DNA of 54,101 bases. Origin: Deltaproteobacteria bacterium RIFCSPLOWO2_12_FULL_60_19. Lineage in GTDB: Bacteria; Desulfobacterota; Binatia; UBA9968. Of the stretch, positions 4,663 through 47,995 are shown piece by piece. Location of the stretch: the NCBI GenBank assembly GCA_001798595.1, contig MGSS01000031.1:1-54101 (forward strand), in the 5' to 3' direction. Below the pieces are notes generated by a model. The model worked only from the letters and a program-made list of their open reading frames with translations, was not told the origin of the DNA and ran no database searches. How positions within the stretch are numbered: position 1 is the first letter of the stretch; each line of letters opens with the position of its first letter. Position numbers and translations under genes: made by a program.

Positions 4663-5850
4663 GTGAAAAAGAGCATCTCGGCCAAGATATTGCTTGCCGT
4701 ATTTGGTGTTTTCTTGGCCCTTCTGATTCTCGAGGCGGTCTTTCGTTTAGTCAACATAGTAAAGTTAAAAGAACGCCTCGCCCCTCAGCGGCAAGGACGC
4801 CCCTTTGCCGCCGATCCTAACTTATACATGAACCCGGTTCATGAGCTCTTTGGCTGGTTTTTCTTCCCTAACAACGAGTTTATATTCACATCAAGACGCG
4901 ACGAATTTCGCGTTCGGGTCAAGATCAACTCCAAGGGTCTCCGTGACCGGGAGTATCCGTATGAAAAGGGAGAAGGGGTCTTCCGGATCCTGGTATTGGG
5001 AGATTCGTTTTCTGCAGCCCTCCAGGTTCCCCTTGAGGAAATTTGGCATGAGATTGTCGAACGGAGATTAAACGGGCCTGCGCGAACCGACACGAAGGTG
5101 GAAATCATCAATGCCGGCGTTCCGGGTTGGGGTACGGGACAGCAGTTGCTCTACTATCGATACGAAGGATATAAATACAACCCCGACCTGATTCTTCTGC
5201 AGTTCTATCTCAACGATATCTCTGATAACGATGCAACCATTCAGGAAGAGCGCCCTAAGCTCGGCAAACCTTTTTTTGTTTTGAATGGCGAACAGCTGGA
5301 GCTTCAGAACTTTCCATATCGACGGCGCGTCTCTTCCGCTTCGCCTCAATGGCGCTATTTTTTTGCTCCTCTCGTCGACAAACTGTATCGAGTGTTTTTT
5401 TCTGATCGTGAAATGCGGCAGGTTCCACACCAGCTTTTGTATTTGGCGGCGAACTATCCCCCGCAAGATCAGACCCGTTGGCGATTGACCACGAGACTGA
5501 TCAAGGAACTAAACACAGAGGCAACCCAACACGGGGCCAGGCTCGCGGTCCTTTACATCCCGGAGAGGCGGCAAGTCCACCCGCAGATTTGGGATGAGAC
5601 ATTGATTAGATACCCAAAAGCAAGGGAAGTGGTATGGGATCTGGACAAGCCGAACCGCTCGCTCGGGAAGTTCCTGGAGCAGGAAGGGATCAGCTACCTG
5701 GATTGGACAGCCTCTTTTCGTGAGCGCGCGGTTAAGGAGGGCCGGCCTTTCTACTTCCTACGCGATCATCACCTAAACCCCGAGGGAAACCGCCTCGGGA
5801 GCGATCTGCTCTATGAATGGCTGCTTAAAGAACGCCGCGTGCCGCGTTGA
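4663..5850 (+). CDS. SGNH hydrolase-like protein with N-terminal signal anchor
   Basis: GTG 4663 starts a 395-residue protein with a basic start and a long hydrophobic helix (ILLAVFGVFLALLILEAVF). The nucleophile block LVLGDSFSAALQV lies near residue 112. An oxyanion-type asparagine follows in QFYLNDISDN, and DHHLNPEGNRL near residue 381 supplies the catalytic Asp/His. A tiny ORF, MRKRAS (4646-4666), ends on the TGA that overlaps this GTG, which could couple translation. The gene has visibly lower GC than the pyr genes after it. Probably an envelope-side esterase or acyltransferase of the same cluster; the substrate is not visible. Confidence 0.75.
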   Translation: MKKSISAKILLAVFGVFLALLILEAVFRLVNIVKLKERLAPQRQGRPFAADPNLYMNPVHELFGWFFFPNNEFIFTSRRDEFRVRVKINSKGLRDREYPYEKGEGVFRILVLGDSFSAALQVPLEEIWHEIVERRLNGPARTDTKVEIINAGVPGWGTGQQLLYYRYEGYKYNPDLILLQFYLNDISDNDATIQEERPKLGKPFFVLNGEQLELQNFPYRRRVSSASPQWRYFFAPLVDKLYRVFFSDREMRQVPHQLLYLAANYPPQDQTRWRLTTRLIKELNTEATQHGARLAVLYIPERRQVHPQIWDETLIRYPKAREVVWDLDKPNRSLGKFLEQEGISYLDWTASFRERAVKEGRPFYFLRDHHLNPEGNRLGSDLLYEWLLKERRVPR

Positions 5851-5925
5851 CGGCCCGCGTGTTCCGTAAAACCGTTCGCCTCGTCCATGCCCATGTAGCT
5901 TACTGGAGCTCGATCACAGTCTCTC

Positions 5926-5954
5926 TTGACTTCGCCTGCAAACCGGCATATAAA
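5926..5954 (+). promoter_or_regulatory. Sigma-70-type promoter of the pyr operon
   Basis: TTGACT (5926-5931) and TATAAA (5949-5954) are separated by 17 bases. Transcription would start near 5961, about ten bases before the PyrR-binding loop, which gives a compact leader. Confidence 0.75.
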
Positions 5955-5964
5955 AACTTCAGCC

Positions 5965-5994
5965 TTTTAAACCAATCCTGCGAGATTGGGAAGG
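5965..5994 (+). promoter_or_regulatory. PyrR-binding RNA loop (anti-antiterminator) of the pyr leader
   Basis: The leader reads AATCCTGCGAGATT (5974-5987) followed by GGGAAGG. This matches the known PyrR-binding consensus ARUCCNGNGAGGYU at all but one position, and the exception (A for G) makes a U-A pair in the stem. CCAAU pairs with AUUGG around the conserved loop. AAGGGT (5991-5996) can alternatively pair with ACCCTT (6038-6043) in the terminator's left arm, giving the antiterminator. PyrR bound with UMP would hold this loop and let the terminator form; this is the established mechanism, applied here by inference. Confidence 0.85.
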
Positions 5995-6034
5995 GTGATA
6001 TGAAAACCGAAAACGTAATCCATCAGTACGCTCG

Positions 6035-6070
6035 AAGACCCTTGCGGTGACCCCGCAGGGGTCTTTTTTT
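6035..6070 (+). terminator. Intrinsic attenuator terminator of the pyr operon
   Basis: A 13-bp stem with one G-U pair (AAGACCC..GCGG with CCGC.GGGGTCTT) closes a 5-base loop (6048-6052) and is followed by seven T. It ends four bases before the pyrR ATG. The GGGG of its right arm (6058-6061) is the only purine-rich stretch near that ATG, so the hairpin may also hide the ribosome site. Confidence 0.88.
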
Positions 6071-6073
6071 GTT

Positions 6074-6616
6074 ATGGAACCGGAGAAGAGGATTCTGCTC
6101 GAAGCGGAGGATATCCGGCGGACGATCAGCCGGATGGCGCACGAGGTGATCGAGAAGTGTGGCGGCGCCGGGGACCTCGCGCTGGTCGGCATCCGGTCGC
6201 GCGGGGCGCATCTCGTGCGGCGGCTGGCCGATAAGATCGGGAGCCTGAGCGGAAGCGCGCCGCCCGTGGGCGTTGTGGACGTTACGCCGTACCGGGACGA
6301 CGTGACGAAGCCCTCCACGGATCATCCGGCGCGGATGGATACGCCGGTCGCTATCGACGATCGGACGGTGGTGCTCGTGGACGACGTTATCTATCGGGGA
6401 CGCACCGTACGCGCCGCCCTGGACATGATCGGACACCTGGGAAAGCCGAAGAAGGTTTTGCTCGCCATTCTCATCGATCGCGGCCACCGCGAGCTGCCGA
6501 TCCGGCCCGATATCGTGGGAAAAAACGTGCGGGCGGAGGAGTCCGAGCGCGTCAACGTGTTGCTCGAAGAATCGGACGGTGTCGATCAGGTGACGGTGAC
6601 GAAACAGGAGAGATAA
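6074..6616 (+). CDS. pyrR: PyrR: pyr operon attenuator protein / uracil phosphoribosyltransferase
   Basis: The 180-residue protein has the family length and the PRPP loop [18 protein letters not shown] near residues 97-114, with the LVGIRSRG strand at about 37-44. PyrR binds the pyr leader RNA when UMP is high and ends transcription; many also convert uracil and PRPP to UMP. The matching RNA site lies just upstream, so autoregulation is well supported. ATG 6074 is the natural start; an in-frame GTG at 6047 lies inside the terminator hairpin and is unlikely. A second PyrR domain is fused to the next gene product. Confidence 0.93.
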   Translation: MEPEKRILLEAEDIRRTISRMAHEVIEKCGGAGDLALVGIRSRGAHLVRRLADKIGSLSGSAPPVGVVDVTPYRDDVTKPSTDHPARMDTPVAIDDRTVVLVDDVIYRGRTVRAALDMIGHLGKPKKVLLAILIDRGHRELPIRPDIVGKNVRAEESERVNVLLEESDGVDQVTVTKQER

Positions 6617-6625
6617 ACCTCGGAA

Positions 6626-8599
6626 ATGGCTGCCGTCGAAAAACGCGATCTCATCTCGATCGAAGACCTGTCGGATCGGGAGATCGAGGAAATTTTCGCT
6701 ATCGCCGATGAGATGCTGGCGCTGGACCGCAGCGGCCCGGGAGCGCAGGCGCTCGCCGGCAGGATCATGGCGACGCTCTTTTACGAGCCGAGCACCCGCA
6801 CGCGTCTATCGTTCGAGTCTTCGATGCAACGGCTCGGCGGCTCGGTGATCAGTTGCCCCGATATGCGAAGCTCTTCCACCGCCAAGGGAGAAACCATCGC
6901 CGACACCGCCAGAGTCGTTTCGAGCTACGCCGACGTTCTGGTGGTGCGCCACTACTGGGACGGCGCGGTTCAAGCGATGGCCGAGTACGCCGACGTGCCT
7001 GTGATCAACGCCGGCGACGGAGGCCACGAGCATCCCACGCAGACGCTGTGCGACCTTTATACGCTGAAAAAAGAGAAAGGCGACCTCAAGGGGCTGACCG
7101 TCGTCATCTGCGGCGACCTGAAGCATGGCCGCACGATCCACTCGCTCGTCTATGCCCTGGCGCGCTTCGGAGTCAACGTCGTGACCCTGGCGGCCGGCGG
7201 CATGGAGCTGCCGCAGTACGTCGTGGAACGGTTGGAAAGCCGATACCATTACAATCTCGCCTCCGTGACATCGAAGGATCTGCAGGCCGTCGTCACAGAG
7301 ACCGATGCGATCTATCTGACGCCGAATCAGCCGCACCAGTTGGCTCTTTTCACCCAGGTGGACCCGAAGATTCAAAACCGGATTCGCAGCATCGCCTCCG
7401 GCCTCAAGTTCGACGCCTTCTATATGACGCGCAAACAAAAAGAGCGAATGAAAGAGAACGGCGGACAGCGCGCGGAGTATCCGAGCCTGGATGAGCGCTT
7501 TCTGAAGGAGCGGCGGTTCAAGGATACCGTCGTGATGCATCCGCTGCCGCGCGTGGACGAACTGTCTCCGGCGATCGACAAAGATCACCGCGGCATCTAC
7601 TTCAAGCAGGCCGCCTACGGCGTGCCGATCCGAATGGCGCTGCTGAAGTTTCTGTTGACGCGGCCCGCCGCCGCAGAAGGCCGAGAGCTGCGGAGAAAGG
7701 CTCAGCTCTACGAGAGTCCCGAGGCGCTCGGTCCCGAGTGCGCCAACACGAACTGCGTGACTCGCGCCGAGAGCCTGTCGGCGAGGCCCCGCTTCGAGAT
7801 CGTCTTTACCGGCCCGGGAGGGAGCCTGATCCTGCGCTGCTTTTACTGCGATCACCAGCTCAAGGTGCAGTACGTGGGGCATAGCATCTCCAAGCGGTAC
7901 TGCCCGTACGACATCGCGCTCGCCGCTACGGTTACGGAGTGGTTCCAACGGCGCGAGCTGGCGATCTTCGATTCCATCAAGCAGGCGGAAGAGCTGCGCT
8001 ACGAGCCTTACAAAGGCGGGCCGCAGCGGAGCATCATGGACGAGGAAGAGATCCGCAGCGCCATCCATCAGGTGGCCGAGCAGATTCTCAAAGAGAGCGA
8101 AGAGATCGAGCGGCTGCTGCTCCTGGGCGTCAAAACGAAAGGGCTTATTCTCGCCAGGCGGATCGCCGAAGAGATAGAGCAACAATCCCGGCGCAAGATC
8201 GAGGTCGGAGAGATCGAGATCTTCGGCAGCGGAGAAGGCATCCGCAGAGCGACGGCGGCGACGGACGAGACGGAACCGCTCGCGCTGAAAGACCGGCCGA
8301 TCGTTCTCGTCGACGACGTGATCTACACGGGACGGACGGTCAAGAGCGCGCTGAGCATTATTTTCAAGGCCGGGCGGCCGAAGTCGGTCCGCCTGGCGGT
8401 GTTGGTGGACCGTGGCCACCGGGAAGTGCCGCTGAAACCTAACTACGTCGGGAAGCATATCCCGACCTCGGAGAAGGAAAGGGTGCGGGTGAAGCTCCGC
8501 GAGGTGGAGCAGGACGAGAAAGACAAGGTCGTGATCTACTCCATCGTCACACCGGATCATGCAATGGAGCAAAATGAGATCGTAGCTGGTAGGTCGTAG
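6626..8599 (+). CDS. pyrB: Aspartate carbamoyltransferase fused to a PyrI zinc domain and a second PyrR domain
   Basis: This 657-residue protein has three parts. Residues ~1-345 are a PyrB catalytic chain: STRTR (56-60), AKGET with the lysine near 87, HPTQ (136-139) and HPLPR (305-309). Residues ~370-430 match the zinc-binding domain of the ATCase regulatory chain: C372-x4-C377, 27 residues, C405-x2-C408, with [10 protein letters not shown] close to PyrI's N.NC....EP. The ~100-residue allosteric nucleotide-binding domain of PyrI is missing. Residues ~466-640 are a complete PyrR-like phosphoribosyltransferase with PRPP loop [13 protein letters not shown]. Fused PyrB-PyrI is known (for example in Thermotoga); I do not know of the PyrR addition. 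It lies nine bases after pyrR. Confidence 0.9.
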
Positions 8600-40339: not shown

Positions 40340-40413
40340 TGCCCCCGGCGGGACTCGAACCCACGGCCCCAGGATTAGGAATCCTGTGCTCTATCCATCT
40401 GAGCTACGGGGGC
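40340..40413 (-). tRNA. tRNA-Arg (anticodon CCT)
   Basis: A full cloverleaf can be drawn: acceptor GCCCCCG/CGGGGGC, D stem GCTC/GAGC, anticodon stem CAGGA/TCCTG with loop TTCCTAA (anticodon CCT), and T arm GTGGG-TTCGAGT-CCCGC. The length is 74 with discriminator A. CCA is not encoded. It reads AGG codons. Confidence 0.96.
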
Positions 40414-41545: not shown

Positions 41546-41753
41546 CCCGGATTCCTCGGAAAGCGAGACCTCACGGCGCAAGTCTTCGGGCCGCAGCCCT
41601 CTCCCTCGCGCCCCTCGGCCTCGCAGGGAAAGCCGGCGCCCGATCGAAGGGCCCGCGCATCCGATACTGCCGGCGGGATTAAGCAGCGCCCGATTGCGCG
41701 GGCGCAGCGGGTGGCGGCTTTCCTCGTATTGATCCAGGCTGGCGTAGCGGTTC

Positions 41754-42812: not shown

Positions 42813-43604
42813 ATGGCGGCGATCATAAACCTTGAATCGGGCCGGAAGCTCAGCGCCGACGAAGCGACGGCCTACACCGACCAGATCATCAAAGAGATGT
42901 ATGCCCGGTGGCAGGAACGGATCTTTCAGGGCGCGTTCATGCGCGATCTCACCGCCGGCAAGCTCCCGGTCGAAACGATCCGGCTGTTCTGGAAGCACTG
43001 GTACAGCTATCCCGTCGAGATCAACAACTTTCATCTCATCATCTACCAGCGCCACCTGGGGTTTTTCTCGCGCCATCCGGAGCTGCTCGCCCCCTACGTC
43101 GGGAAGATCAGCGACGAGCTGGTGAATCCCAAGATCCCCGGCCACATCCAGGTGCTGATCGAGCAGGGGAAAACGTTCGGCGTCAGCCGCGACGAGATGG
43201 CGAATTGCGCGGTTTTTCCCGAATGCCGCGCGCTCACGGAGTTTGCCAGAGGGCTGGTTTACGAGGGGAGCTTTATCGAATGGTGGGCGCGCTCGCTGAA
43301 CGAAGAGATGTTCGGCCACTGGGCGAGAGAGTGGCGCCAGGCTCTGTTGGGTCCGTACAAATTCAAAGACGCCGACCTGCACTATTTCCAGGTGCATGAA
43401 GAAGCCGATCTGGAAGAGCACGAAGACGGGCTGATGGCGCACGGCCAGGTCGCACGCATGATTTTTCAGACTCTTCTCCGGGACGGCCTTACCTGGACCA
43501 GGCCCGGATGGTCTCCCGAGTATTGCTGTCTCACCAACGCGGACTACGTGGCCATGTTTCACGACGGAATCTACAAACACGCAAAGGAAGACGGCCACGG
43601 CTGA
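42813..43604 (+). CDS. Haem-oxygenase-like diiron oxidase (TenA-like), copy 2
   Basis: The 263-residue helical protein has candidate metal ligands E102 and H111 (DELVNPKIPGH) and H195, D199 and H203 (VHEEADLEEH), the same spacing logic as the proteins at 38687 and 47108. It contains several tryptophans around YSYPVEINNFHL and FIEWWARSL. Ribosome site GGGAGGAAAC before ATG 42813. The chemistry is probably O2-dependent cleavage or oxidation of a small metabolite; the substrate is unknown. Coupled in order with the aldolase and the first UbiD gene. Confidence 0.8.
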   Translation: MAAIINLESGRKLSADEATAYTDQIIKEMYARWQERIFQGAFMRDLTAGKLPVETIRLFWKHWYSYPVEINNFHLIIYQRHLGFFSRHPELLAPYVGKISDELVNPKIPGHIQVLIEQGKTFGVSRDEMANCAVFPECRALTEFARGLVYEGSFIEWWARSLNEEMFGHWAREWRQALLGPYKFKDADLHYFQVHEEADLEEHEDGLMAHGQVARMIFQTLLRDGLTWTRPGWSPEYCCLTNADYVAMFHDGIYKHAKEDGHG

Positions 43605-43620: not shown

Positions 43621-43718
43621 TCCGAAGGGGCAAGCCGTGACGGGCGACGGCACCGACCGCGAAGGTTCTCTACACCAGCGCCCTATTGCCGTCGACCGGA
43701 AGGGCTTGCCCGTGAGGA
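43621..43718 (+). ncRNA. Covarying structured element, copy A
   Basis: The ends pair over ~15 positions: TCC/GGA, tandem G-A, A-T, then GGGCAAGCC (43628-43636) with GGCTTGCCC (43703-43711). An inner 8-bp helix CGACGGCA (43645-43652)/TGCCGTCG (43687-43694) is invariant. The conserved block GGCACCGACCGCGAAGGTT lies beyond the inner helix's left arm. Between oxidase and UbiD genes. Compare copies B and C. Confidence 0.65.
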
Positions 43719-43746
43719 CGTTGAATAAGTTTGGGTTGGAGATTTC

Positions 43747-45189
43747 ATGGCTTTTAACGATCTAAGAGAATTTATCAACGCGGCCCGCGCCATCGGCGAC
43801 CTCAAGGAAATCCACGGCGCCCACTGGGACCTGGAAATCGGCGCGCTGACCGAAGTCTTCGTCTCACGCGAGCCTTCTCCCCTGCTCTTGTTCGATCAGA
43901 TCCCCGGCTACCCTCCGTCGTATCGCGTCGCCTCCAACCTCATCAGCCATCCGCGGCGCGCCGCGCTGGTCTCCGGCATGCCGACGGACATCCCCAGGAC
44001 GGAGATGGTCCGGCGCTGGAAGCAGATATTGAAAGAGTTGCAGCCCATTCCACCGCGTTTCGTGAGCACCGGCCCGCTGTATGAGAACGTTCGCAACGGA
44101 ACGGCCATCGATATGAGGGCGTTTCCGGTGCCGAAATGGCACGAGCTTGACGGCGGCCGCTATCTCGGCACGGCTTGCTGCGTGATCACCGCCGATCCCG
44201 ACGACGGCTGGGTGAACGTCGGGATTTACCGGGTGCAGCTTCACGATCGCGACCGGCTCGGCCTCTACATCTCGCCCGGCCACCACGCGCGGATCATTCG
44301 CGAAAAATACTGGGCCCGAGGCAAGAGCTGCCCGGTGGCTGTAACTTTCGGTCAGGAGCCGCTGCTCTGGCTCACAGCGGGACAGTCCGTCCCCTACGGC
44401 GTTTCCGAGTTCGACTACGCCGGCGGTTTGCGAAAATTGCCGGTGGACGTCGTTAAAGGCGAGCGAACCGGTCTGCCGATCCCCGCGACGGCGGAAATTG
44501 CGATAGAGGGGGAGGTGCCGCCGCCGCAGGAAGAGAACCGCGTGGAGGGGCCGTTCGGCGAATGGCCCGGCTACTACGCTCACGGCGCGCGCGAGGAGCC
44601 GGTCATACGGGTCCAGGCGCTTTACCACCGCAACGATCCGATTCTTGCGGGCGCGCCGCCGATGAAACCGCCGTCTTTGACCTTCGGCGTGCCGATCGGA
44701 GCGGCGGCGATTTGGAACTATCTCGACAAAGCGGACGTGCCTGACGTCCAGGGCGTCTGGGCCTTCGTGGGCGGCTCAGCTCCCGGCGGCGGCGCGCCGT
44801 TCATCGTCGTCTCGATCAAGCAGCGCTACCACGGCCACGCACAGCAGGCCGCGCTCGCCGCTCTGGCCTGCCGCGCCGGCAACTATCATGGCCGCTTCGT
44901 CGTCGTGGTCGATGAAGACATCGACCCGGCAGACCTGGGCGAAGTGATCTGGGCGCTCTCGACGCGTTGCGATCCCAAGACCGCGCTCACGGTGATCGAC
45001 AACTGCTGGAGCACGCCGCTCGATGCCGCCATGCACCCGGATAAAAAAGACGCCGGAGACTTCACCAACAGCCGCGCTATCTTCAACGCCTGCCGGCCCT
45101 ACGCCTGGAAAGACCGCTTTCCGCCCGTCAATGCCCTCAGCCCCGATATGCGGCGCAAGATTATGGAAAAGTGGAAGCGCGAATTCTAG
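43747..45189 (+). CDS. UbiD-family prenylated-FMN decarboxylase, copy 1
   Basis: The 480-residue protein has the UbiD layout. The prFMN/metal segment is WVNVGIYRVQLHD (N157, R162), the mid block IPATAEIAIEGEVPPP carries conserved glutamates, and EGPFGEWPGYY near residue 270 carries the catalytic-type glutamate. A C-terminal segment VVVDEDIDPADLGEVIWALS follows. UbiD enzymes reversibly decarboxylate unsaturated or aromatic acids using prenylated FMN made by UbiX, which is not in this window. Substrate unknown, probably aromatic or heteroaromatic. ATG 43747 lies 28 bases after structured element A. Confidence 0.92.
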   Translation: MAFNDLREFINAARAIGDLKEIHGAHWDLEIGALTEVFVSREPSPLLLFDQIPGYPPSYRVASNLISHPRRAALVSGMPTDIPRTEMVRRWKQILKELQPIPPRFVSTGPLYENVRNGTAIDMRAFPVPKWHELDGGRYLGTACCVITADPDDGWVNVGIYRVQLHDRDRLGLYISPGHHARIIREKYWARGKSCPVAVTFGQEPLLWLTAGQSVPYGVSEFDYAGGLRKLPVDVVKGERTGLPIPATAEIAIEGEVPPPQEENRVEGPFGEWPGYYAHGAREEPVIRVQALYHRNDPILAGAPPMKPPSLTFGVPIGAAAIWNYLDKADVPDVQGVWAFVGGSAPGGGAPFIVVSIKQRYHGHAQQAALAALACRAGNYHGRFVVVVDEDIDPADLGEVIWALSTRCDPKTALTVIDNCWSTPLDAAMHPDKKDAGDFTNSRAIFNACRPYAWKDRFPPVNALSPDMRRKIMEKWKREF

Positions 45190-45298
45190 GGCCAGCGTAC
45201 AAACCCCCACCTTTGCCATTAGCCCGTAACCCCATCCGATCGCCTATAGCGAGTCCAACGTAACCGTAGCAGACGCACAGACCGGCGGCGCGCTGTCG

Positions 45299-45396
45299 TC
45301 CGAAGGTGCGAGTTGTGAAGGGCGACGGCACCGACCGTGAAGGTTCCCTACACCACCGCCCTATTGCCGTCGACCGGAACAGCTCGTACCTGAGGA
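45299..45396 (+). ncRNA. Covarying structured element, copy B
   Basis: It aligns to copy A without gaps over 98 bases. The long helix is GGTGCGAGTTG with CAGCTCGTACC. Compared with A, three pairs change on both strands (G-C to T-A, A-T to G-C, C-G to T-A) and two change to G-T wobbles. The inner CGACGGCA/TGCCGTCG helix is unchanged. It lies 110 bases after UbiD copy 1. The flanks 45190-45298 and 45397-45471 show nothing else. Confidence 0.65.
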
Positions 45397-45471
45397 CAAC
45401 GAACCGGAACTCATCAGCGCCTCAATCAAAAAGGCCACAGTTAGGTCAGCCTGCCCCCTTGCATTTTACTG

Positions 45472-45501
45472 TTGACTATTTATATACGAATCGTTTATAT
45501 A
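45472..45501 (+). promoter_or_regulatory. Promoter of the second UbiD gene
   Basis: TTGACT (45472-45477), 18 bases, TATATA (45496-45501) in an unusually AT-rich stretch, with AGGAGG at 45536-45541 before ATG 45547. Confidence 0.7.
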
Positions 45502-45546
45502 TCAACTAAATTACAGGTTTTAAAATCAGCTACTTAGGAGGATGCG

Positions 45547-47013
45547 ATGCCGTTTAAAGACCTGCGGTCGTACATTAAGCGATTACACCAAGAAGGCGAG
45601 CTTCAGAAGATCAGTGAGGAAGTCCAGCCCGTCTATGAGGTCGGCGCGATCATCCGACGCTCCTACGACCTGCGCGCCCCCGCCCCATTTTTTTCCAACC
45701 TCAGAGGCTTTCCCGATGCGCGGATCTTCGGCGCGCCCATCGGCCTGAGCCGCGACAAAAACCGGACCTTCGCCCGCTTCGCCATTTCTATGGACATGGC
45801 CCCGGAATCGTCCCCGATGGATATCATGGAAGAATACCTGCGCCGCATCCAAAAACCGATCAAGCCGGTGATCGTCAAAGACGGGCCGTGCAAAGAGAAC
45901 ATCGTCGTCGGAAAGGAGGTGGACCTCCAGGCTTTTCCCTCTCCTGTCCTTCACCAAGGCGACGGCGGCCCCTACATCGGCACCTGGCACGCTAACATCA
46001 CTAAAGATCCCGACACCGGCGTCCGCAACTGGGGCATGTATCGCCTCATGGTCCACGACCAGAACACCATGGGCGGCCTTTTTCTTCCAGCGCAGAATAT
46101 CGGCATCCACTACTACACAAAGTACGAGCCGCGCGGCCGGCCGATGGAATTCGCCATCGCGCTCGGCACCGAGCCGGTCACGCCCTGGGTCGCCGGAACG
46201 CGCTTTCCTATCGATGTGTCCGAGGCCGACATTATCGGCGGTATCCGCGGGGAGCCGCTTGAGTTGATCAAGTGCGAGACGGTCGATCTTGAAGTGCCCG
46301 CGGCCTCGGAGATCGTGATTGAAGGCTTCATCCCGCCGCACGAGCGAAAGCTGGAAGGCCCTTTCGGCGAATATACCGGCTTCATGGCCGCGGACCGCGC
46401 GCCCCGCCCGGTTTACCATGTCACCGCCATCACGCATCGCAACCGGCCGATTCTCCCCGCCACCTGTATGGGCGTGCCGGTCGACGACTCAGCCGTTTCG
46501 CTTTCGTTGACCAAAGCGGCGAACATTCTCGGCGAACTCAGGCAACGTGGATTTCCCGTACGATCGGTCTATTGTCCTCCCGAGGCCGTCTCCCATTGGA
46601 CGGTAGTTTCAACCAAAGTCCCCTACCCCGGCTACGCGCGCCACCTGGCGCACGCCATTTGGGGAACGGGATGGGGCCGCTCCGGCTGGTATCTGGTGAT
46701 CGTGGAAGAAGACATCGATATCACCGACATGGGGCAGGTGCTGTGGGCGATCTCGACGGCGTGCCATCCCAAGCGCGGCATCGTCCAGGTGGACAACGTC
46801 CCGGCTCATCCGCTGCTGCCGTTTTTAAGCCCGGAAGAAAAGGCGAAGCATCTCGGCGCCTACGCGTTGTTCGATTGCACCTGGCCGCGGGAGTGGCCCA
46901 AAGAGGCGATGCCGGTCAAAGCCTCTTTCGACAATATCTGGCCCAAGGAAGTGCAGGACAAGGTGCTACGGAACTGGCAGGCCTACGGCTATAAAGACGG
47001 TTGTAATGAATGA
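45547..47013 (+). CDS. UbiD-family prenylated-FMN decarboxylase, copy 2
   Basis: The 488-residue protein shows the same landmarks as copy 1: the cofactor segment GVRNWGMYRLMVHD, VPAASEIVIEGFIPPHERK, EGPFGEYTGFM and VIVEEDIDITDMGQVLWAIS. It is only distantly similar to copy 1, so the pair is likely to have distinct substrates or to form a mixed oligomer; which is not visible. It has its own promoter and a consensus ribosome site. Followed after 94 bases by an oxidase gene. Confidence 0.92.
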   Translation: MPFKDLRSYIKRLHQEGELQKISEEVQPVYEVGAIIRRSYDLRAPAPFFSNLRGFPDARIFGAPIGLSRDKNRTFARFAISMDMAPESSPMDIMEEYLRRIQKPIKPVIVKDGPCKENIVVGKEVDLQAFPSPVLHQGDGGPYIGTWHANITKDPDTGVRNWGMYRLMVHDQNTMGGLFLPAQNIGIHYYTKYEPRGRPMEFAIALGTEPVTPWVAGTRFPIDVSEADIIGGIRGEPLELIKCETVDLEVPAASEIVIEGFIPPHERKLEGPFGEYTGFMAADRAPRPVYHVTAITHRNRPILPATCMGVPVDDSAVSLSLTKAANILGELRQRGFPVRSVYCPPEAVSHWTVVSTKVPYPGYARHLAHAIWGTGWGRSGWYLVIVEEDIDITDMGQVLWAISTACHPKRGIVQVDNVPAHPLLPFLSPEEKAKHLGAYALFDCTWPREWPKEAMPVKASFDNIWPKEVQDKVLRNWQAYGYKDGCNE

Positions 47014-47107
47014 GCGTCAAGAGACGGAGACGCTTTTATTTCGGAACGGAAACATATATGAAAATGTATCCGCCAACGGACGGCGAATCTTAGGGTAACT
47101 TAAAAAG

Positions 47108-47812
47108 ATGAGCGCTTTGGAAAATCGAATCAAAGGACTCGTGCTCCAAACCGTCTACCTGGAGCCGTCGTCGTTCAACCGGGTACAGCCCGGAGACCTG
47201 ACGAAAGAAGGCGGCCGGGTTTTCGTCAGCCAATTTTCCCACTTTACGCGGAACTTTCCGCGCTGGCTGGCCGCGGTCGCGGCCAACTGTGGTGTCGCGG
47301 ATGTGCGGAAATTTCTCGCCGCCAATCTCTACGAAGAAGAGATCGGCTCTTCGGGGCAGGGATCGCACTACGATCTGCTCGTGCGGCAAGGCGAATCGCT
47401 GGGCTTGACTCGTGTTGAGATCGAGCATGCCGCGCCGCTTCCCTCCACACAGCTTGCCGTCAACGCGCTCGAAAGCATCTGCCGCAATCGCTCGTGGCTC
47501 GAAGGGCTCGCAGCGACGAGCGGCCTGGAATGCATCAACCACCCGGGCGTCCGCCGGCAAGCCGGCGTGATCATCATCAACGACGTCCGCGCCTGGCGCC
47601 ACCTGGGGCTAAACGCCGAGCAGCTCCGCTCGCGAACCATCCACATGGAAGAGGACGAAAAGCACGTCGACACGGCGCTCGAAATTCTCCGCGCGCACGC
47701 CGCTACGGAAGAGTTGCAGCAGCGGGTGGTCGAAACCGCGCGCGACGCGCTGCTCGCCTTCAGAATGCTGCTCGAAGGAATCGGAAACGCGGCGTTTCCC
47801 GCAAACCGTTAG
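47108..47812 (+). CDS. Haem-oxygenase-like diiron oxidase, copy 3
   Basis: The 234-residue helical protein has candidate ligands E76-E78 and H87 (LYEEEIGSSGQGSH) and H179, D183 and H186 (IHMEEDEKH). This E-x(~10)-H plus H-x3-D-x2-H arrangement is shared with the two other copies in the window. The ligand set argues for a metal-dependent oxidase over the thiaminase TenA. Start ATG 47108 lacks a clear ribosome site. It follows the second UbiD gene and precedes structured element C. Confidence 0.8.
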   Translation: MSALENRIKGLVLQTVYLEPSSFNRVQPGDLTKEGGRVFVSQFSHFTRNFPRWLAAVAANCGVADVRKFLAANLYEEEIGSSGQGSHYDLLVRQGESLGLTRVEIEHAAPLPSTQLAVNALESICRNRSWLEGLAATSGLECINHPGVRRQAGVIIINDVRAWRHLGLNAEQLRSRTIHMEEDEKHVDTALEILRAHAATEELQQRVVETARDALLAFRMLLEGIGNAAFPANR

Positions 47813-47855
47813 CCTTAGCTATTATACCGACGGGAGGAACCTCGACACAGCATTG

Positions 47856-47951
47856 TCCGAGGGGCAGGCCCTGAAGGACGACGGCACCGAGCGCGAAGGT
47901 TGCCCTAGGTAGAAAACTATTGCCGTCGGCCGGAAGGGCTTGCCCCTCGGA
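47856..47951 (+). ncRNA. Covarying structured element, copy C
   Basis: TCCGAGGGGCAGGCCCT (47856-47872) pairs with AGGGCTTGCCCCTCGGA (47935-47951): 17 base pairs with one G-T. One base is missing relative to A and B, which turns their tandem G-A mismatch into ordinary pairs. The CGACGGCA/TGCCGTCG helix and GGCACCGAGCGCGAAGGTT are kept, while the loop after it differs. It lies between two convergent genes. Confidence 0.62.
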
Positions 47952-47995
47952 CTGTGAATGGCCTAAGCTAGAAACCGCTCAAGATCAGCGGCGAT

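Follow-up and report, generated by a model that had tools for sequence, protein, structure and literature searches.

We examined a 54,101-nucleotide (nt) stretch of DNA from Deltaproteobacteria bacterium RIFCSPLOWO2_12_FULL_60_19 (NCBI GenBank assembly GCA_001798595.1, contig MGSS01000031.1, positions 1 to 54,101), referred to here as the window. A single gene cluster in the window, which includes UbiD genes and a gene for an iron-containing redox enzyme, contains three copies (A, B, and C) of a hairpin-forming element with a 98-nt core, all within about 4.3 kb. An initial annotation, made from the letters alone, described these copies as a candidate structured RNA situated in the gaps after an oxidase, a UbiD, and an oxidase gene. 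The copies are found where that annotation placed them, all on the plus strand, and are listed below together with the outer arms of copy C:

43621..43718, plus strand: copy A, subfamily (i), between an open reading frame (ORF) ending at 43604 and a UbiD gene; its parts are a long terminal helix, a G·A internal loop, an inner helix, and an apical domain
45299..45396, plus strand: copy B, subfamily (i), flanked by two UbiD genes
47856..47951, plus strand: copy C, subfamily (i), between the iron-containing redox enzyme gene (plus strand) and a convergent gene (minus strand)
47810..47826, plus strand: left outer arm of copy C (TAGCC...), the TAG of which terminates the upstream ORF 47108-47812
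47956..47971, plus strand: right outer arm of copy C (...AAGCTAG), a decayed inverted match to the left arm, read directly from the sequence

The flanking genes correspond in part to their first description. A UbiD gene precedes copy B as described, the gene before copy C encodes an iron-containing redox enzyme (Haem_oxygenas_2), and for the ORF before copy A, Pfam gave no match at E ≤ 0.001. The convergent minus-strand gene past copy C has a weak Cupin_2 match that falls under the curated cut-off.

A and B align without gaps across the element, and reading this alignment by eye recovers the changes reported for the terminal helix, with three pairs altered on both sides and two altered to G-T. 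The helix of copy C has the 17 pairs attributed to it, though one of them is a G·T, and the helix is thus not strictly perfect, contrary to the earlier claim. All three copies fold better than dinucleotide-shuffled sequences (z = -4.4 for A, -5.0 for B, and -7.2 for C), and none of 200 shuffles of each copy folds as well. Rfam covariance models applied to the window at gathering thresholds found nothing at the elements, and searches of seven loci at E ≤ 3 returned three matches, none of which covers an element; the initial impression that no known riboswitch class could be recognised was thus correct. An intrinsic terminator reading of A, B, and C was rejected, since the hairpins have no T run, and none of 13 terminator-like sites lies on a copy. 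A terminator-like stem-loop with a weak T run is present at 47975-47991, just past copy C and between the convergent genes.

A BLASTN comparison of copy A with its own 4.19-Mb assembly gave 43 matches at E ≤ 10. Thirty of these were retrieved, and 24 full-length and three truncated copies among them were used in our analyses. Two matches were left out as inverted arms of copies already counted (L028 and L030) and a third on the grounds that its surroundings resemble, by eye, a ribosomal protein gene (L029); the remaining 13 matches (E values of 0.1-2.3) are outside the count. Copies are 74-86% identical to A across the match. A covariance model built from the 24 full-length copies (R1), of the kind that the initial annotation had suggested for searching the genome and its relatives, recovers the same 24 copies at E < 1e-18 along with weaker variants, and scores A, B, and C, all of which belong to its training set, at 108, 103, and 96 bits. 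A broader covariance model that spans several subfamilies (R3) identifies at least 77 matches in the genome at E ≤ 1e-3 (150 of 1957 candidates scored).

The genome contains at least three subfamilies: (i), the element that was noted first; (ii), with GGACGTCCGATGAG-type loops; and (iii), with the pattern GCATCCGATAC...CCCATTGC. The subfamily (iii) pattern has 43 matches in the genome, compared with none for the reversed pattern. Most subfamily (i) copies are single and 29 subfamily (iii) copies were examined as solo sites, while all 11 full-length copies of subfamily (ii) in the genome are arranged head-to-head with a copy of subfamily (iii). The window itself holds two relatives beyond A, B, and C, which form a partly truncated pair at 41564-41730:

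41564..41624, minus strand: truncated subfamily (ii) unit (E = 2.5e-5), shortly past an NMT1-type gene whose stop codon is within CCGTAGCCCGGATT
41622..41730, plus strand: subfamily (iii) unit (E = 7.1e-4; two mismatches to the subfamily pattern), head-to-head with the unit at 41564..41624

At L055/L205 (G000:C37:59648-59808), in the unit beside L121 1319-1427, and at L366, the apical domain of the element is swapped for a palindromic repeat, CCCTTCGGG...ATTTGAGATTTGCG..., a swap that was found in three genera and that looks, by eye, like one repeat inserted in the loop of another.

The unit shared by these copies is a hairpin of about 100 nt. Its long outer helix, in which G·A and A·G mismatches form a paired step, leads via a 3x3 GA internal loop to an inner helix of some 8-11 bp, and this is capped by a conserved apical domain of about 35 nt. 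Across the 24 copies of subfamily (i), standard pairs account for 94.8% of 648 cells. Both sides change in 15 of 27 pairs, and none of 500 shuffles is as high on any of five measures. A second set of 32 copies was chosen by hand for variety from more than 100 matches and covers several subfamilies and genera. In this mixed set, the step of G·A and then A·G is found in 29 of the 32 copies at each position, 92.5% of 703 cells pair, and 19 of 22 pairs change on both sides. Double-change cells number 151, against 41.8 (standard deviation 5.4) in shuffles; four measures were matched by none of 500 shuffles and one measure by a single shuffle. Weak pairs in the mixed set are those between columns 23 and 96 (unpaired in 13 of 32 copies) and between columns 31 and 90 (unpaired in 12), and the small apical helix as drawn in R1 pairs in only 80.6% of cells. 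Among 40 copies of subfamily (iii), 14 of the 36 consensus pairs show double changes, and the apical domain is nearly invariant within this subfamily and recognisably related across subfamilies.

Significance in these comparisons refers to pair counts against shuffles, which overstate it because the copies are related to one another. The covariation is real, and the combination of a fixed core with covarying stems that was first described from three copies holds with 24 and with 32. Covariation does not by itself establish selection on RNA structure, a step that the initial annotation had suggested, since compensatory changes are reported to occur commonly in the hairpins of REPINs, a kind of repeat that is described as mobile DNA (PMC3116915).

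Relatives of the locus were found via the UbiD protein, and the nearest named metagenome-assembled genomes (MAGs) are deposited as Deltaproteobacteria or Proteobacteria. One locus, L223 (MAG Centralia_MAG_52, deposited as Proteobacteria), is syntenic with 40.6-50 kb of the window at 72-82% DNA identity and is without A, B, and C; at site A, 27 nt separate the aligned gene ends, compared with 149 nt here. A second locus, L222 (MAG nzgw178), spans site A only and likewise lacks the element, and scans of L223 and L222 with R1 and R3 found no copy. With all three sites empty in L223 and dozens of copies in other gaps, the proposal that the element is a cis-regulator or operon processing element of these particular genes is not supported. 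The alternative of a spreading palindromic element, which had been raised alongside it, accounts better for the empty sites and the dozens of dispersed copies. The annotation had also pictured how a miniature inverted-repeat transposable element (MITE) would look, with hundreds of copies at random sites, including inside genes, and with identical ends; what we observe are dozens of copies that are nearly all intergenic and whose ends have diverged.

Surveys within the phylum place the element mainly in one family. Among 43 relative loci scanned with R1 (of 79 retrieved), we identified one match, at L249 (MAG DP_36), which lies 49 nt past a UbiD-like gene on the opposite strand and has E = 9e-17 with R3. 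At the level of the order, elements are present in 16 of 35 genomes with R1 (E ≤ 1e-4) and in 17 of 35 when the R1 and R3 surveys are combined. At the level of the class, at least 15 of 148 genomes contain matches (R3, E ≤ 1e-5), in a survey that scored 26 candidates per genome, so that weak matches are lost and copy numbers saturate; these matches fall in 14 of 25 genomes of the element's own family (source genome included) and in one genome of a sister family. In a phylum sample of 395 genomes, with nine candidates scored per genome, at least two match, namely the source genome and one of its family. Genus g5 contains many pairs and mosaics, with head-to-head pairs at 20 of 48 loci (hand count). 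Five other genera contain forms of about 160 nt with an extra internal domain, some of which have different outer repeats; these longer forms were seen at L065, L066, L067, L073, L074, L078, and L080 (genomes G001, G011, G005, G002, and G014).

The position of the elements relative to genes was assessed with genes called by a simple script based on ORFs and codon usage, the boundaries of which are approximate. Across 67 units of the three subfamilies, a single truncated copy (L025) falls within a called ORF, close to the start assigned to that ORF, and a called ORF extends 28-60 nt into the edge of seven others. The 27 copies of subfamily (i) comprise 14 that are unidirectional and in sense, five that are unidirectional and antisense, six that are convergent, and two that are divergent, and 20 of the 27 are in sense to the upstream ORF (p = 0.019). 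In a hand tally that omits the ambiguous L341, the (i)/(ii) strand is co-oriented with the upstream gene at 47 of 66 sites from the three subfamilies (p = 0.0008), divided into 20/27, 7/11 (which alone is not significant), and 20/28. For subfamily (iii), the element's own strand runs antisense to its neighbouring gene in 20 of 28 solo copies. Stop codons of neighbouring ORFs are found at the ends of some copies. On the left, the upstream ORF stop (TAG in six cases and TAA in four) is located 39-50 nt before the subfamily (i) match, at the start of the outer arm, in 10 of 27 copies; on the right, the TAG of the downstream ORF lies 14-16 nt past the match in six of 27.

A further line of evidence comes from the non-Watson-Crick pairs. 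G·T and A·C cells were counted on the element's own strand, with pairs that have a non-Watson-Crick majority excluded. G·T cells exceed A·C cells by 28 to 3 in subfamily (i), by 13 to 2 in subfamily (ii), and by 25 to 5 in the mixed set. In subfamily (iii), the counts are 30 to 5 in the two main stems and 33 to 15 over all 36 predicted pairs, doubtful apical ones included. Counted by pair position, the values are 11 to 2, 6 to 2, 11 to 3, and 15 to 5. Within subfamily (i), the 19 sense copies give 22 to 1, and the five antisense copies, which are too few to compare, give 6 to 2. Because G·T exceeds A·C on the element's own strand, this strand can be taken as the folded one. The excess is compatible with RNA and with single-stranded DNA alike, and both selection and strand-specific deamination could produce it. 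Its presence in subfamily (iii), which is mostly antisense to its neighbours, disfavours an mRNA-level role as the main cause, and the G·T excess, with the antisense subfamily included, favours a single-stranded form over an mRNA role.

These results bear directly on a reading in which the element is a structured RNA of the 3' untranslated region (3'-UTR) that stabilises or processes mRNA, for instance through RNase III or an RNA-binding protein, and that is selected at each site. Such an RNA would explain the strong covariation, the fixed loops, and the sense orientation relative to upstream genes, both in subfamily (i) and over the three subfamilies. We consider it unlikely, given that the sites are empty in the syntenic L223, that the G·T excess extends to the mostly antisense subfamily (iii), and that a head-to-head pair can have just one of its units in sense.

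Some copies have an outer inverted repeat, TAGCCCGGATTATTCA...TGAATAATCCGGGCTA, on either side of the 98-nt core, which is clearest at L003, L018, and L021 and at L211 in another genus. At some sites the outer repeat has the form TAG...CTA, and other sites instead have a head-to-head second unit. The flanks are weakly conserved over the 24 copies, and columns of the outer arms reach about 0.5 bit at most; the core is much better conserved. The pattern TAGCCCGGATTATTCATG, allowing up to three mismatches, has 11 matches in the genome, compared with none for its reversed version; four of these are at known subfamily (i) copies and seven are elsewhere. This end repeat is thus also found without the core, as at L089, L091, and other loci of the source genome (G000), and the element does not always include it. 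The solitary repeats at L089 and L091 apparently lie close to the ends of ORFs. A different outer repeat, AAGGAGTTCAT..., occurs in other genera, and at L375 and L383 (G007) it surrounds an unrelated palindrome, GTCATTCCCGCG..., in place of the core hairpin. Outer ends and cores appear to have been exchanged at these two loci.

Some of these features could be read as those of a classical MITE of a DDE transposase, in which mobility would reside in the outer TAGCCCGGATTATTCA inverted repeat, with the core hairpin as cargo. The outer inverted repeats of some subfamily (i) copies, the AAGGAGTTCAT... repeats that enclose unrelated palindromes in G007, and the seven TAGCCCGGATTATTCATG matches without a core at no known copy would all be consistent with this. 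At L373 1501-2963 (G011:C81), a half-copy that corresponds to the left side of the 160-nt form is followed, about 0.3 kb on, by an IS630-like ORF on the opposite strand; this gene, recognised from its translation only, was taken as an unrelated neighbour. No second end is seen in the 1.6 kb that were read. A MITE origin seems quite improbable to us: pattern searches with two outer repeats found no autonomous transposon with the same ends, the half-copy near the IS630-like gene shows no second end in these 1.6 kb, the core is far better conserved than the arms, and no target duplication was demonstrated. The idea of a new riboswitch-like or trans-acting RNA class that regulates UbiD and oxidase genes, which could draw on the closeness of three copies in one gene cluster, is hardly credible and is largely refuted by copy number and empty sites, with dozens of copies elsewhere, mostly 3' of genes, and no Rfam match.

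We consider it likely that A, B, and C are members of a non-autonomous, REP/REPIN-like palindromic repeat superfamily (REP, repetitive extragenic palindromic), one that has dispersed across the intergenic regions of a single bacterial family. We read the elements as a dispersed, probably mobile superfamily of REP-like hairpins and not as regulators of UbiD or oxidase genes. As a possible mechanism, the element's own strand would form a single-stranded hairpin, units would move, or would have moved, in this form, and a trans-acting protein may recognise the GA loop and the apical domain. Insertion beside stop codons may be preferred or tolerated. Inserted units probably appear as 3'-UTR hairpins, and mRNA ends or stability may change as a side effect. 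A bolder proposal, which we put forward tentatively and with low confidence, is that the element is an undescribed kind of mobile hairpin. Its own strand, in the form of either RNA or single-stranded DNA, would fold into a conserved module of GA internal loop and apical domain that is read in trans by a protein, and subfamilies with unrelated stems would share one recognition core.

Several observations weigh against placing the elements in a mobile, REP-like superfamily. The empty sites in L223 could also reflect loss, neither excision nor target-site duplication was seen, and the divergence of the copies from A indicates that movement is not recent. The orientation bias in subfamily (i) also fits an mRNA role, and the outer repeat is clear in few copies, with TAGCCCGGATTATTCATG matches lying mostly elsewhere. 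The unit, at about 100 nt, is larger than REP repeats (20-40 bp), and the GTAG/CGTC tag that characterises the latter is absent by eye at the foot of the core (PMC3733652). The outer arms start with TAG or TAA, and the preceding base is variable. Of the 35 genomes of the order, 34 encode Y1_Tnp genes, whether or not they contain elements. In 40 stretches around Y1_Tnp matches from 12 genomes, which are part of all such matches in the order and some of which end near the gene, no element lies within 1 kb of the match; elements are present in four of the stretches with R1 (E ≤ 0.05) and in five with R3 (E ≤ 0.01). A link to the tyrosine transposase was rejected on these two grounds, its occurrence in element-free genomes and the lack of a copy within 1 kb in the 40 stretches. 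The source genome also encodes two tyrosine transposases at L163 (G000:C144; genes at 1779-2825 and 5850-6769), and these have terminal inverted repeats of their own, of the GGGGTCAG type. Among the genomes and stretches examined, no mobiliser was found.

The elements add to the REP-like repeats a larger superfamily, restricted to one lineage, whose stems diverge freely and whose loops stay recognisable. They offer a natural setting in which to ask if RNA or single-stranded DNA is the form in which bacterial palindromic repeats are kept, and, should the bolder proposal be true and the recognised form be RNA, they would represent a retro-mobile or protein-partnered small RNA. The asymmetry of G·T and A·C pairs on sense and antisense units is a test that can be repeated elsewhere. 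The analysis also carries a caution, in that covariation among dispersed intergenic copies does not alone define a regulatory RNA.

A full-text literature search returned no paper that points to this element by its title or the start of its abstract. The window also contains a tRNA gene (40340-40413, minus strand; Rfam RF00005, 68.9 bits). Families of bacterial stem-loop sequences, surveyed in 40 bacterial genomes, are like the elements in being repeated, mostly intergenic, and of common secondary structure (PMC2267715). The terminal inverted repeats of TIRYT tyrosine transposases provide a second parallel, as they form moderately abundant families, some of them self-complementary, that occur as dimers (PMC3733652). 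A GGGGWSAS motif is reported for TIRYT genes in the same source, and the GGGGTCAG-type ends of the two Y1 transposases at L163 fit this motif; these ends are unrelated to the elements.

The closest resemblance is to REP, BIME (bacterial interspersed mosaic element), and REPIN sequences. REP repeats are described as palindromes of 20-40 bp that are located mostly 3' of genes, often form head-to-head dimers, and have ends that give TAG stops (PMC3733652). The elements similarly are palindromic, dispersed, intergenic, and mainly 3' of genes (PMC3733652, PMC3116915), they form head-to-head dimers that include heterodimers, a TAG at the element end supplies stop codons, and the hairpin shows compensatory changes. 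They differ from REP and REPIN sequences, as far as these sources describe them, in their conserved GA internal loop and apical domain of about 35 nt and in that none of the tyrosine transposase genes examined has a copy within 1 kb. The elements are thus REP-like in behaviour and stand outside the described REP superfamilies (GTAG and CGTC).

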